DNA from: Deltaproteobacteria bacterium
GTDB lineage: Bacteria; Desulfobacterota; DSM-4660; Desulfatiglandales; Desulfatiglandaceae
NCBI GenBank assembly: GCA_021737785.1
Contig: JAIPDI010000057.1
Location: forward strand, 1-33,265
DNA length: 33,265 bases
Reading direction: 5' to 3'
Shown: piece by piece, positions 10,683 to 33,265 of the stretch
Numbering within the stretch: position 1 is the stretch's first letter
How the letters are laid out: each line of letters begins with the position of its first letter
The notes under the pieces: model-generated
The model's database searches: none
What the model was told of the DNA's origin: nothing
Seen by the model: the letters and a program-made list of their open reading frames with translations, nothing else
Position numbers and translations under genes: made by a program

Positions 10683-11434
10683 GTGTCGAGCGCCCTGCAA
10701 AGGACCGGTGGAGACTGGACCGCCTTCTGGTGGACAGGGGCCTGGCCGGGAGCAGGGAAAAGGCAAAGGCCATGATCATGGCCGGTCTCGTTTTGGTGGA
10801 TGGTACGCGGGTTGACAAGCCCGGGCATCCTGTGCCGGATCAGGCAGCCGTCTCTCTCAAGGAGTCCCGCCCGCCGTTTGTCAGCCGGGGCGGCCAGAAA
10901 CTGGAGGCCGCGCTCGAACACTTTCGAGTAAGCGTCCAGGCGCTCACCCTGCTGGATGTGGGGGCATCCACCGGAGGGTTTACAGACTGTCTCCTCAAGC
11001 GCGGTGCCGGCAGGGTCACGGCAATCGATGTGGGCTACGGCCAGCTGGACTGGACGCTCCGGCAGGACCCGAGGGTGGAAGTCCTTGAAAAAACAAACAT
11101 CCGGTACCTGGAACCGGAACGTCTGAACATCCTTGCCCATGGGGCGGTCATTGACGTCTCGTTTATCTCGCTCAAACAGGTTGTCCCTCCTGTTTCCCGG
11201 CTCCTTCGGGAAAACGCCTTTATCATTGCGCTGATCAAGCCCCAATTCGAGGTGGGAAAGGGGAAGGTCGGCAAAGGGGGGGTCGTGCGGGACCCTCTCC
11301 TTCACCAGGGGGTCATTGAGGACCTGACCCGGTTTTTTGAACACTCGGGGTGGCGGGTTCACGGGCATATCCCCTCTCCCCTCCTGGGACCCAAGGGGAA
11401 CCGGGAGTTTCTTGTTTATATGACGAGGGATTAG
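10679..11434 (+). CDS. tlyA: TlyA family rRNA (cytidine-2'-O)-methyltransferase
   Basis: A 251-residue protein with an N-terminal S4 RNA-binding domain (about 12-60, [20 protein letters not shown]) and an FtsJ-like methyltransferase domain. The SAM-binding loop is [16 protein letters not shown] (91-106), and VIDVSFISL and ALIKPQFE follow. The family methylates 2'-OH of cytidines in 16S and/or 23S rRNA; many members are labelled hemolysin from an old assay. The GTG start overlaps the dxs stop (GTGA). Co-transcription with dxs is frequent in bacteria. A heptad repeat array begins 7 nt after the stop codon. Confidence 0.93.
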
Positions 11435-11441
11435 CGGGAAA

Positions 11442-11497
11442 CTGGATGCTGGATGCTGGATACTTGATACTTGATACTTGATGCTGGATACTGGATA
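11442..11497 (+). repeat. Heptad array, eight copies of CTGGATR
   Basis: Eight uninterrupted 7-bp units: CTGGATG twice, CTGGATA, CTTGATA twice, CTTGATG, CTGGATA twice. The array starts 7 nt after the tlyA stop codon on the same strand. Related arrays are at 16219-16316 (reverse orientation) and 33003-33072. Confidence 0.9.
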
Positions 11498-11580
11498 CGC
11501 TCATGGCTCATGACCGATAGCTGAATCCCGCTTTCCAGCGGGACTCAACAGCTATGCAGCTCAGCTCACTTCAGCCACTT
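11498..11580 (+). repeat. Tail of the composite repeat with TCCCGCT/AGCGGGA hairpin
   Basis: TGGCTCA, TGACCGA and TAGCTGA words follow the heptads. A perfect 7-bp stem with TTCC loop follows at 11526-11543, then AGCT-rich sequence and a run of eight T. The same order occurs at 16135-16218 in reverse and at 33073-33129. It may act as a terminator for the tlyA operon, but the T run is about 35 bp from the stem. Confidence 0.7.
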
Positions 11581-16134: not shown

Positions 16135-16218
16135 AACACGGGGTGAGCGGGTAAGCTGTTGAGCTGGTAAGTCCCGCTGGAAAGCGGGATTGCGCTACTC
16201 AGCCATCCGCCATCCGCC
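16135..16218 (-). repeat. Tail of the second composite repeat with hairpin
   Basis: Read on the minus strand, the order is GGCGGATGGCGGATGG, GGCTGAGTAGCGC, the hairpin TCCCGCTTTCCAGCGGGA (complement of 16172-16189), then CTTACCAGCTCAACAGC. The order and hairpin match 11498-11580. Confidence 0.7.
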
Positions 16219-16316
16219 CATCCAGTTTCAAGTATCCAGTATCCAGTATCCAGTATCCAGCATCCAGCATCCAGTATCAAGTATCCAGCATCCAGCAACC
16301 AGCAACCAGCATCCAG
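16219..16316 (-). repeat. Heptad array, fourteen copies of CTGGATR-type units
   Basis: On the plus strand it reads TATCCAG/CATCCAG/CAACCAG units in fourteen uninterrupted 7-bp steps, with TTTCAAG and TATCAAG variants. On the minus strand it begins about 10 nt after the stop codon of the small gene at 16327-16563. Confidence 0.9.
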
Positions 16317-16326
16317 CAACCCGCCC

Positions 16327-16563
16327 CTATTCCACCTTGATTCGGGTGGCCTTTTTTTGTCCCCGGGGAACGCCCTCCTTCTCCAGGTCTTCTATCTTTT
16401 CATCGATCAGGGATTTCACGGCCTTGAGGAACTCGATCCGTGACCGGGACAGATGTTCTGTAAATTTGGATTTCCTCCGGGATGCCTTTTCAAGTTTTGA
16501 AAAAAACCTGCCGATCGGGCATATCATCTGTTCGTTCAGAGTCTCATCTTTTGTTTTGACCAT
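16327..16563 (-). CDS. Small helical protein of unknown function, partner gene of the ArsA-Hsp20 ATPase
   Basis: A 78-residue protein with no family that I recognise. The predicted middle is a long charged helix (about 16-62), and the C terminus is basic (GQKKATRIKVE). A CP pair occurs in MICPIGRFF near the N terminus. No signal peptide or membrane segment is seen. The ATG at 16563 has a strong GGAGG 5 nt upstream; an earlier in-frame ATG at 16590 overlaps the arsA stop codon but lacks such a site. Tight coupling to the ATPase gene suggests a partner or cargo adaptor, which is inference. A heptad array starts right after its stop. Confidence 0.65.
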   Translation of the reverse strand: MVKTKDETLNEQMICPIGRFFSKLEKASRRKSKFTEHLSRSRIEFLKAVKSLIDEKIEDLEKEGVPRGQKKATRIKVE

Positions 16564-16589
16564 GGCTACCTCCAATTCAACCGCTTTCA

Positions 16590-17771
16590 TCAAGGTTCAA
16601 ACGCAATGGACAGATCCGCCCCGTCGAGTTTGGCGCTGACCGATGTCGAGGAGGCCACCTGTCTGGGGAGGAGGATGTGCCGCTTGAAGCCTCCGATACG
16701 GATAACCAGTTCATCCGACACCTTATTGAGGTCCACATCCTTCTTCTCTATAAAGGGGAGCTTGATCTTCAACTGGTACCTGCCGTTGACCTTGACCAGA
16801 GAATACGGCTGCCCGTCAAAAAACCGCTCCAGCGGGTCCCTGTCTCCGTATATCTGATCAGCCAGCAACGCGAGGCTTTCCTTCCCCAATATCTCTCCCC
16901 TGAAGAGATTTACCGGAAAAAGGGGAATCGGGCTGAAATACGCCTCTGCCTGCCGGATATATTCGCCCTGCCGCTCCCTCCAGTCCTCAAAATAGTCGTC
17001 ATGAATACTCTCCGGAAGAATACGATTCATGATAATGGCGTCTATGCTCATTTTGTAAAGAGAAAAATACATGAAGGCCCGCTGGGTTTCCTTGAGTACG
17101 ATCTTTTCAGGATTGGTGACGAGACGCACCGTTGTTGTCTTGGGATCCACCAGGATCTCGTCCACCCCCTGCAGGCGCTGGAACAGGAATTCAATGGCAT
17201 CAAAGTAGTCTTCGCCCGGAAGGGGAACATCGTACAGCCGTTTGGCGATGGGACGGGCATACCTGGCAATGGCCTTTTCCATCTTGAATATCTTTTTTAT
17301 GTACCATTCCAGGGTGGTTGGAATGCTGATGAACCTGAGCGATTCGCCCGTGGGTGCGCAATCCAGAAGAATGACATCGAATTTCTTTGTCCGGACATAC
17401 CGATTGATGTAGAGGAGGAGACTCACCTCCTCCATCCCCGGCAGGATGGCCAGTTCCTCGGCCAGGATCTCATCCAGCCCGGTGGTGTTGAGGAGGGTGG
17501 AGATGTATTTGTGGATATCCCCCCAGTTCTTTTCGATCTCTTCCTGAATATCCAGTTCCTGGATCCAGAGGGTATTTCCCACCTTGATCGGTTTCCCTCG
17601 GTTCTTGTCAATCAGGCCCCTGTCCAGGTCAAAAATATCGGCAAGGCTGTGGGCCACATCCAGAGACATGACCAGGGTCTTTTTGCCTGCACGGGCCGCC
17701 TTGATCCCTGTGGCGGCGGCCACACTGGTCTTCCCGACCCCGCCCTTCCCCGCAAAAAATATGATTCTCAT
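16590..17771 (-). CDS. ArsA/GET3-type ATPase with C-terminal Hsp20-like domain
   Basis: A 393-residue single-domain member of the ArsA/GET3 SIMIBI ATPases. The deviant P-loop is GKGGVGKT (8-15), the switch I region DVAHSLADIF (38-47) and the switch II DCAPTGES (137-144). After about residue 315 comes a beta-rich domain (LVKVNGRYQLKIKLPFIEKKDVDL, then GGFKRHILLP) that matches the Hsp20-like tail known from bacterial ArsA homologues. The GET3 CxxC zinc motif and the arsenite-binding cysteines of ArsA are not evident, so arsenite export is unlikely. A client-binding or targeting role fits better (inference). No arsenic genes are nearby. Confidence 0.85.
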   Translation of the reverse strand: MRIIFFAGKGGVGKTSVAAATGIKAARAGKKTLVMSLDVAHSLADIFDLDRGLIDKNRGKPIKVGNTLWIQELDIQEEIEKNWGDIHKYISTLLNTTGLDEILAEELAILPGMEEVSLLLYINRYVRTKKFDVILLDCAPTGESLRFISIPTTLEWYIKKIFKMEKAIARYARPIAKRLYDVPLPGEDYFDAIEFLFQRLQGVDEILVDPKTTTVRLVTNPEKIVLKETQRAFMYFSLYKMSIDAIIMNRILPESIHDDYFEDWRERQGEYIRQAEAYFSPIPLFPVNLFRGEILGKESLALLADQIYGDRDPLERFFDGQPYSLVKVNGRYQLKIKLPFIEKKDVDLNKVSDELVIRIGGFKRHILLPRQVASSTSVSAKLDGADLSIAFEP

Positions 17772-25443: not shown

Positions 25444-25497
25444 CGAATTCTCCAATTCTCCAATTCCTCAATTCCTCGATTCCCGAATCCCTCAATG
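25444..25497 (-). repeat. Short-period CAATTCCTC-type repeat, second locus
   Basis: On the plus strand GAATTCTCC, AATTCTCC, AATTCCTC, AATTCCTCG and ATTCCCGAATCC follow each other. The reverse complement matches the family at 5816-5867. It lies between the convergent RNase Z-like and polyprenyl synthase genes. Confidence 0.55.
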
Positions 25498-30138: not shown

Positions 30139-33000
30139 ATGCTTGGAAAAATCATAAAGAATATTTTCGGCAGTAAAAATGAACGGGAACTCAAAAAACT
30201 GACCCCGATGGTGGATCAGATCAATCAACTGGAAGCGGATTTTCAGGCCCTGTCCGACGAACAGTTTCCTCAAAAAACAGCTGAATTCAAGGAGCGGCTT
30301 TTGCGGGGGGAAGCCCTGGACGACATCCTTCCTGAAGCATTTTCCGCTGTGAGAGAGGCCTCTGTAAGGACCCTCGGGATGAGACACTTTGATGTGCAAC
30401 TCATCGGCGGGATTGTGTTGCACCAGGGTAAGATCGCCGAAATGAAGACCGGCGAGGGCAAAACCCTGGCTGCGACGCTTCCCCTCTACCTCAATGCCCT
30501 GACAGGAAAGGGCGCCCATCTGGTGACCGTTAATGATTACCTGGCCCAACGAGATGCAGAGTGGATGGGGGCCATCTACAAGGCCCTGGGGCTTTCAGTG
30601 GGGGTGGTTGTCCATGGCATGGATGACAGGGAGCGGAAAGCGGCCTATGCCTGCGATATCACCTATGGCACCAATAATGAATTCGGATTCGACTACCTCC
30701 GTGACAACATGAAGTTTGATTATGCGGATTTTGTCCAGAGAGGGTTCCATTATGCCATTGTGGATGAGGTGGACAGCATCCTGATTGATGAGGCCCGGAC
30801 CCCTTTGATCATCAGCGGGCCGGTCGAACACAGCGAAAACAGGATCTACGAGGAAGTCAAACCCCTGACCATCAATCTGAGAAAGAAGCAGAACACGATC
30901 ATCCGCTCTCTTCTGAATGACGTGCGCCAGTCTCTGGATGCGGGGGACGCAGGAGAGAAGACGATCGAAACCCTCCTGCAGATCAAGAGGGGGGATCCCA
31001 AGAATCCCGTATTCCTGGACATCGTGGCCAAGAACCAGGCGCTGAAAAAACAGATCGACAGGACTGAGAGCATGCTGAGATCCCAGAAGGTGCTGCCCGA
31101 CCTGGATCAGGATCTCTACTGCACCATCGACGAGCGAAGCAACGCAGTGGAACTCACTGAAAAGGGGCTGGACCTCCTCTCAAAAGGCGGGCTGGGCGAG
31201 TTTATGCTCCCTGATCTGGACGACGAAAGCCACAATGTCCGGAATGATCCCCAACTGAGCAAGGCTGATAAGGAGGAGCGTCTGAGGGCACTTGAAGAGC
31301 AGTACATGAAGACGTCCGAGCTGATCCACGCCACGCAGCAGCTGATCAAGGCCTACTGGCTGTTTGAGAAGGATGTGCATTACGTCATCAAAGACGGTGA
31401 GATCATGATCGTCGATGAATTTACCGGCCGTCTCATGCCGGGTAGACGCTGGAGCGACGGTCTGCACCAGGCCGTGGAGGCCAAAGAGGGCGTCAAGGTG
31501 GCCGGGGAAAACCAGACCCTGGCGACGGTGACCTTCCAGAATTTCTTCCGCATGTATGAAAAACTGGCCGGGATGACCGGGACGGCGGATACCGAGGCGG
31601 CTGAATTCAACAATATCTACAAGCTGGATGTGGTGGTCATCCCGACCAACAAGAAGATGATCCGCATCGATTTCCCGGATGTAATCTACAAGACCGAGCG
31701 GGAAAAATTCAGGGCCGCTGCGGACGAGATCCGGGCGCTTTATGAAAAGGGACAGCCGGTCCTGGTGGGCACGATCTCCGTGGAAAAGTCCGAGATGCTG
31801 AGCAAGATGCTCAAGCGGACCGATGTCCCGCATTCCGTGCTGAATGCCAAACATCATCAGAAGGAGGCTGAGATTATCGCAAACGCGGGTCAGCAGAAGA
31901 CCGTAACCATCTCCACCAACATGGCCGGCCGGGGGACCGATATTGTTCTGGGAGAGGGCGTTCGCGAATTGGGCGGACTTCACATCCTGGGGACCGAACG
32001 GCATGAGAGCCGGCGGGTGGACAACCAGCTCAGGGGCCGATCAGGGAGGCAGGGAGATCCCGGCACCTCCCGGTTCTACCTTTCCCTCGAAGATGATCTC
32101 CTCAGGATCTTCGGGTCTGACAGGATTTCCTCTATCATGGAACGACTGGGGATGGAAGAAGGCGAGCCGATTGAACACAGTCTGATCTCCCGCGGAATTG
32201 AAAACGCCCAGAAAAAGGTGGAAGCCCGTAATTTTGACATGCGGAAACATCTCCTTGAGTATGACGACGTGATGAACAAACACCGGGAGATCATCTATTC
32301 CTTAAGAAGAGATATCCTGGAGGGGAGTCGGATCGGTGAAATCATCCAGGATATGATCGATGAGAAGGTGGATGGGCTGGTGGATCAGTGGATCGATCCC
32401 GAAGCCCACCCCGAGGATTGGAACATCAAGGAACTCAAAGGGGTTGTCTCGCGGTTGTTCGGTTTCCAATTAAAGGCAGGACCCGAAGATATCGGAGAGG
32501 AGGCCTTTGATGCGCTCAAGGCGGATGATCTCCCCGACATGGTCCGCGAGCAGGTCAGAACCGTCTATGAGGAGAGGGAAAAACTGTTCGGAAAAGAAGA
32601 ATTGGAGCAGCTTGAACGCTATATCATCCTCCAGATCATCGACGATAAGTGGGTGGCCCACTTGCAGGCCATGGATCATATGAAAGAGGGTGTCGGTCTC
32701 CGGGGATACGGGCAGCTCGACCCGCTCAAGGAATACCAGAAAGAGGGGTTTGCCCTGTTCGGAGAGCTGATGGATCAGATCCGGGAAGAGACCCTCAGCA
32801 TGCTCTTCAGGGTGCAGATTGTGAGACAGAGACCTGAACAGGTGCCCAGGCCGAAAAAAAGGCCATTGAACCTGAGTCATGGAGATGAGGGTGCAGGTCC
32901 GGTCACTATCCGGCGCAGCGAAAAAAAGGTCGGGCGGAACGACCCCTGTCCCTGCGGGAGCGGCAAAAAATACAAGAAGTGTTGCGGGGCGGGCAAGTAG
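30139..33000 (+). CDS. secA: Preprotein translocase ATPase subunit SecA
   Basis: A 953-residue motor that drives exported proteins through SecYEG. It starts [21 protein letters not shown]. Walker A is MKTGEGKT (102-109), and the DEAD-like box is [67 protein letters not shown] and [13 protein letters not shown] mark the second nucleotide-binding domain. The C-terminal SEC-C zinc site [13 protein letters not shown] is complete. Between VKPLTIN and CTIDERS there are about 60 more residues than in E. coli SecA, mostly charged helix in the preprotein-binding region. In-frame ATGs at 30133 and 30139 are both possible; the latter gives the canonical N terminus. No strong Shine-Dalgarno sequence. Confidence 0.96.
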
Positions 33001-33002
33001 GT

Positions 33003-33072
33003 CTGGATGCTGGATACTGGATACTGGATGCTGGATGGTGGATACTGGATACTGGATGCTGGATGGTGGATG
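33003..33072 (+). repeat. Heptad array, ten copies of CTGGATR
   Basis: Ten uninterrupted 7-bp units, CTGGATG or CTGGATA with two GTGGAT variants, starting 2 nt after the secA stop codon on the same strand. Same family as 11442-11497 and 16219-16316. Confidence 0.92.
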
Positions 33073-33129
33073 GGCGGATAGCTGATAGCTGATAGCTGAT
33101 GGCTCAGTAGCTTAATCCCGCTTTCCAGC
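33073..33129 (+). repeat. Tail of the third composite repeat, truncated hairpin
   Basis: TAGCTGA three times, TGGCTCA, TAGCTTA, then AATCCCGCTTTCCAGC. The hairpin stops after AGC and continues as unrelated CCCCTG, so this copy lacks most of its right hairpin arm. Confidence 0.7.
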
Positions 33130-33173
33130 CCCCTGTGTCAGAGTAGTTGTCGGATGAAGCAGGAGAGAAGTGG

Positions 33174-33216
33174 CGACACCCCCGTAGGTGAGCGTAGCGA
33201 ACCGGAGGGGGTGTCG
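33174..33216. repeat. Inverted repeat, 10-bp perfect arms
   Basis: CGACACCCCC (33174-33183) and GGGGGTGTCG (33207-33216) flank GTAGGTGAGCGTAGCGAACC. No T run follows. It may be an unrelated dispersed palindrome that truncated the composite repeat, or part of an element running off the window. No gene is seen from 33001 to the window end. Confidence 0.5.
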
Positions 33217-33265
33217 GAGGCGACCCGCCATCCCCATTTCTCCTCAATACGAACATGAAGCGGGG

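Follow-up and report, generated by a model that had tools for sequence, protein, structure and literature searches.

Heptad-repeat arrays at gene edges in a deltaproteobacterial genome: placement, strand rule, and turnover

Tandem heptads have been described in several groups of bacteria, and the STRR heptamers of cyanobacteria are known to have small dispersed repeats inserted in them. The heptads GGGAATC of Xanthomonas and GGGGA(C/T)T of Nostoc PCC 7120 lie in sense orientation within 50 bp past stop codons and in antisense orientation within 50 bp ahead of start codons, and in any orientation they are closer to the 5' neighboring ORF; convergent inverted pairs occur in Xanthomonas, with few in Nostoc, where arrays are mostly single, and no function was found (Rehm et al., 2015; PMC4692102). 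TAACTGA heptamers are found near start codons in Beggiatoaceae, Cyanobacteria, and Bacteroidetes (MacGregor, 2015; PMC4679880), and Geobacter metallireducens has four tandem GGGACCG heptads at 49 sites (PMC2700814).

The window considered here is one whole contig (C57; 33,265 bp) from a source genome, G000, of 5.33 Mb in 96 contigs. It contains three CTGGATR arrays, each followed by a small module, at the places and on the strands claimed for them in a first-pass annotation:

11442..11498, plus strand: CTGGATR array, copy 1; 8 units, 5 CTGGATR and 3 CTTGATR
11499..11575, plus strand: small module after copy 1, with TRGCTSA words, a hairpin, and TCAGCT-type words
16219..16318, minus strand: CTGGATR array, copy 2; 14 units, 10 exact
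16140..16218, minus strand: module after copy 2, with TRGCTSA-like words and a hairpin (16172-16190)
33003..33072, plus strand: CTGGATR array, copy 3; 10 units, 8 exact
33073..33129, plus strand: module after copy 3, with TRGCTSA words and the 5' half of a hairpin, cut at ~33128
33128..33265, no strand assigned: 138-bp repeat that interrupts the copy 3 module and ends contigs C57 and C67

Each array starts shortly after a same-strand stop codon, as had been claimed: copy 1 begins 7 nt past the stop of tlyA (S4+FtsJ; TAG 11432-11434), copy 2 ~8 nt past the TAG of a small gene after arsA (16327-16593(-); no match in Pfam), and copy 3 2 nt past the stop of secA (32998-33000). The next genes downstream are an HD-domain gene for copy 1 and hisS for copy 2. 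The annotation's figure of 8 to 14 exact units overstates the count, as exact CTGGATR units number 5, 10, and 8 among the 8, 14, and 10; the remainder, counted on the printed sequence, are CTTGATR and similar. TlyA of the window is 82% identical to that of a WHONDRS river-set MAG of the Thermodesulfobacteriota (L059), and an Rfam search of the window gave no match. Tandem Repeats Finder reports a 50-bp unit (CCACAAGAACACAAGAGAACGG...) repeated 3.2 times at 74-232.

The survey of G000 covered 1.80 Mb of stretches, about a third of the genome and partly chosen, with genes, including gene starts, called by our own codon-usage caller. It contains 57 CTGGATR arrays, compared with 0 in the reversed-sequence control, and the backward pattern has no match across the whole genome, which excludes arrays by chance. 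Because the first 0.8 Mb was partly picked where arrays had already been listed, array density in the sample is not unbiased; values per 100 kb are 0 for contigs C6 and C9 and reach 15 for the C38 stretch. This unevenness across contigs (C6 and C9 versus C38, C57, and C32) tends to go with GC content, array-poor contigs being lower in GC, and these are perhaps acquired DNA. For the genomes besides G000 and G005, sampling was centered on CTGGATR matches or orthologous loci. The backward control pattern, RTAGGTC, reaches up to 49 matches in one genome among G129, G094, and G056 (family f14), where it is apparently a separate heptad family.

The composite order of array, TRGCTSA words, and hairpin is present in the three window copies but is not typical of the genome. 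A CCCGCT/AGCGGG hairpin lies ≤160 nt behind 5 of the 57 arrays of the sample, two or more TRGCTSA words lie ≤70 nt behind 10, and hairpin and words occur together behind only 3. The copy 1 module has its hairpin, ATCCCGCTTTCCAGCGGGA, at 11525-11543; across G000 as a whole, the exact hairpin has 10 matches when up to 2 mismatches are allowed. Copies of the hairpin module (copies 1-3, C67, and C5:125102) are ~73-86% identical, with copy 1 at ~80% to the others, and that at C5:125102 is away from any detected array; the module is a separate small repeat, not part of the array unit. The hairpin of the third copy is cut short, as had been noted, and a 138-bp sequence (starting CCCCCTGTGTCAGAG) begins at the cut. 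This sequence, which follows heptad-module sequence in both contigs, is the exact end of C67 too, so copy 3 is cut because the assembly broke at another repeat. Probably it is the terminal part of a longer mobile element; a comparison of the 138-bp repeat with plasmids gave no match.

Placement was counted on the 53 CTGGATR arrays for which both neighboring genes were called. In 32 the 5' end lies at a same-strand stop codon (median distance 2 bp; ≤20 bp in 28), and in the other 21 the array is antisense to an opposite-strand gene whose start codon its 5' end adjoins (median 18 bp); the 5' edge is the one nearer to a gene in 48 of 53, as in Rehm-type repeats. Scatter without orientation or distance preference, the outcome named beforehand as contrary to constant placement, was not found. 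Both preferences exist, but for any gene edge and not for stop codons in particular. Period-7 arrays in the sample are intergenic in 145 cases and genic in 10. Arrays are 17 to 100 bp long, with ~3 to 14 units, and do not share the four-unit preference of Rehm-type repeats. Array and stop codon share a register in 13 of 28 cases (4 expected), TGA standing where the unit has GGA.

A strand rule governs these positions. For period-7/8 arrays ≤40 bp from a gene edge, G was compared with C on the strand running outward from the gene, and G exceeds C in 185 of 207 edge arrays pooled from six genomes with no skew cut-off (22 against). The rule spans unit families, both types of edge, and all six genomes (G005, 34/37; G054, 9/9; G092, 14/14; G381, 9/10; G024, 9/9); codirectional gene pairs of G000 follow it 23:0 at starts and 59:7 at stops, its convergent spacers 11:2 at stops, and its divergent spacers 8:2 at starts. 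Neighboring arrays within one G000 spacer read G-then-C on the top strand 41 times and C-then-G 4 times, and beyond 40 bp from a gene edge G000 arrays no longer follow the rule. A against T gave nothing at edge arrays, and purine or A/T skew was weaker or absent compared with G/C. General spacer composition was rejected as the cause, array-free spacers having no G excess after stops; before starts, array-free spacers have the opposite skew, as expected from Shine-Dalgarno sequences. In varied bacteria, 80 loci around tlyA gave 5 of 7 near-edge period arrays, too few to test the rule. Within the window, an 8-bp AATTCCTC array lies in a convergent spacer at 25446-25496; it obeys the rule, since its G-rich strand points outward at the stop of gene 25492(-).

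Distribution among relatives is patchy. Among 46 genomes of the family, 19 have CTGGATR arrays, as do 24 of the 395 in the phylum sample; within the genus, G005 has many and G004 none, and exact CTGGATR units recur across the phylum in distant families. Orthologous spacers differ by whole units and in the unit itself. In G005, 3 of 8 are short (11-26 bp) and array-free: that of copy 1 is 17 bp with a single unit-like stretch (GTGGTGGATGCTGA), that of C5:89466 is 26 bp, and that of C2:71367 is ~11-17 bp. Past the same stop codon, the copy 2 site has 14 units in G000 versus ~2.5 in G005, and in G024 it has a different heptad of GCAGATT type. For C22:60792 and the C38 locus L159:15482, the orthologous spacer holds another array of the CTGGATR unit, while at L159:15841-15873 (C38) a CTGGATR array lies within N-terminal codons, where G005 has another heptad family. 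Orthologs that are short and empty, or that have shorter or different heptads, indicate that the arrays lengthen, shorten, and give way to others at the same site, changes that a fixed mobile composite leaves unexplained. The spacer of copy 2 in G004 (L239:5200-5540) contains an unrelated element that has GTAACCGTTCACGG ... GTGAACGGTTAC as its terminal inverted repeats.

The reading that we prefer, with a probability of roughly 0.55, is that these are intergenic 7-bp simple-sequence arrays grown by slippage and bounded by gene signals. Arrays would arise and change length in place by strand slippage or unequal recombination, from or beside short unit-like stretches at a gene edge, and would occupy the spacer as far as the function of its neighbors permits, to the stop codon on one side and the Shine-Dalgarno/start region on the other. 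Near-confinement to spacers, whole-unit differences and changes of unit between orthologs, the register with the stop codon, and the lack of excess RNA structure count in support of this reading. For the strand rule we infer selection at gene edges: loss of the rule beyond 40 bp is expected if gene-edge signals impose it, and at start edges selection against G-rich, Shine-Dalgarno-like sense RNA is a plausible reason. Slippage alone gives no reason for an outward G-rich strand at stop edges, and this counts against the reading. Because the rule also holds in convergent stop-stop and divergent start-start spacers, no one reason based on expression stands out; the presence of the unit at dozens of sites in the genome and in distant families suggests some dispersal besides local slippage. 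The three window copies are part of a genome-wide, fast-changing set of intergenic heptads and are no special end-of-gene signal.

It is unlikely, but conceivable, that the arrays derive instead from a small mobile element, a MITE- or REP-like hairpin with heptad arms that inserts in short operon spacers, lone arrays being one-armed or decayed. Such a form exists in G054 and G092, which belong to another family: their CTGGATR arrays serve as both arms of hairpins (arms ~25 bp in G054, a little more in G092), and 17 of 27 have a convergent partner and none a divergent one. G000 itself has ~110-bp hairpins with arms of tandem TGGAATRN octamers, a second repeat family (C1:189175, C5:42478, C5:141640, C22:2820, and others). 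The three short, array-free spacers of G005 are in part consistent with an insertion at gene ends, which had been proposed earlier; growth, shrinkage, and unit replacement in place at the other sites do not. A partner arm was found for 0 of 100 arrays in G000, G005, G024, and G381, and a convergent partner, the inverted-arm form of REP and MITE elements, for 0 of 57 in G000. A palindromic origin of the G000 array spacers was rejected, as their own halves match less than halves of different spacers, and no constant right end was found for G000 arrays. Y1 transposases were rejected as the agent; every genome tested has them, the array-free G004 included, and their numbers are low.

Much less probable is that a regulator, protein or RNA, binds the arrays, for instance a CsrA-like protein at GGA or a DNA-binding protein on either strand. 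Sense RNA after stops does have GGA every 7 nt, and post-transcriptional regulators have been proposed for TAACTGA heptads (MacGregor, 2015; PMC4679880); before starts, however, the sense RNA has UCC instead of GGA, the unit differs between relatives at one site, and many unrelated units follow the same strand rule.

Lower again we place the earlier view of an element for 3'-end formation, mRNA stability, or termination after stop codons. The 32 arrays at same-strand stops suit it; the 21 antisense at start codons do not fit 3'-end formation or mRNA stability, and neither do the scarcity of hairpins behind arrays nor the orthologs that have no array or other sequence. Folding of array spacers is not in excess of that of dinucleotide shuffles (mean z -0.27), and the arrays do not form intrinsic terminators, in which a stable hairpin is directly followed by a U tract; in copy 1, a T8 occurs only ~35 nt beyond its hairpin. 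The arrays have no dedicated 3'-end signal.

After telomere-like healing, interstitial (G-rich)n arrays remain, or (G-rich)n-(C-rich)n fusions that lie head to head. By analogy, polar growth, in which short G-rich repeats would be added to both 3' ends of a broken spacer before the ends are joined, might be imagined, and we consider it very improbable. If true, it would lead G outward from both genes irrespective of their orientation, give single arrays or convergent hairpins by lineage, and let the unit change by lineage.

Least probable of all is that G-quadruplex biology sets the placement, as considered for the GGGAATC and GGGGAYT repeats: placement equals that in Rehm et al. (2015; PMC4692102), but four or more GGG tracts, a capacity judged by sequence only, are present in 25 of 212 edge arrays, the rule still stands at 160:22 in arrays having neither four GGG nor four CCC tracts, and the CTGGATR unit has GG only, short of the three Gs per tract of Rehm-type repeats, so that with most units not capable of three-tetrad G-quadruplexes these are not the common cause of placement.

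Among described systems, the Rehm repeats come close in having 7-bp units at many, mostly intergenic loci, with length variable at the same gene pair, and in forming convergent pairs in one lineage (here G054 and G092) and single arrays in another. They differ in phylum and in G4 capacity, which most units here lack; moreover, a single genome here has many unit families that follow the rule, and it applies at both spacer ends. TAACTGA repeats are likewise intergenic heptads close to gene edges and patchy in distant lineages, but they are mostly forward and just upstream of starts, with few units per set and a unit with a single G. The STRR repeats resemble the present arrays in having a separate small hairpin element adjoining or inside the heptads, with different units. 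The Geobacter GGGACCG heptads are also dispersed in a genome of the former Deltaproteobacteria; their copies, unlike these, are fixed at four, lie partly within genes, and align as one element. REP/REPIN and MITE elements are matched by the hairpins in spacers of G054 and G092 but not by the G000 arrays, for which neither a partner arm nor a constant right end was found.

The G000 arrays are the same kind of repeat as the Rehm and MacGregor heptads, with different units that are mostly not G4-capable. The earlier reports from Xanthomonas, Nostoc, and Beggiatoaceae stood separately and were explained by G-quadruplexes or local regulators. One strand rule, followed by many unrelated units at both gene edges in six genomes of one phylum and mostly without G4 capacity, turns these scattered reports into a single testable regularity of how bacterial spacers are filled, and makes the cause of the rule, selection versus polar DNA synthesis, a direct question.
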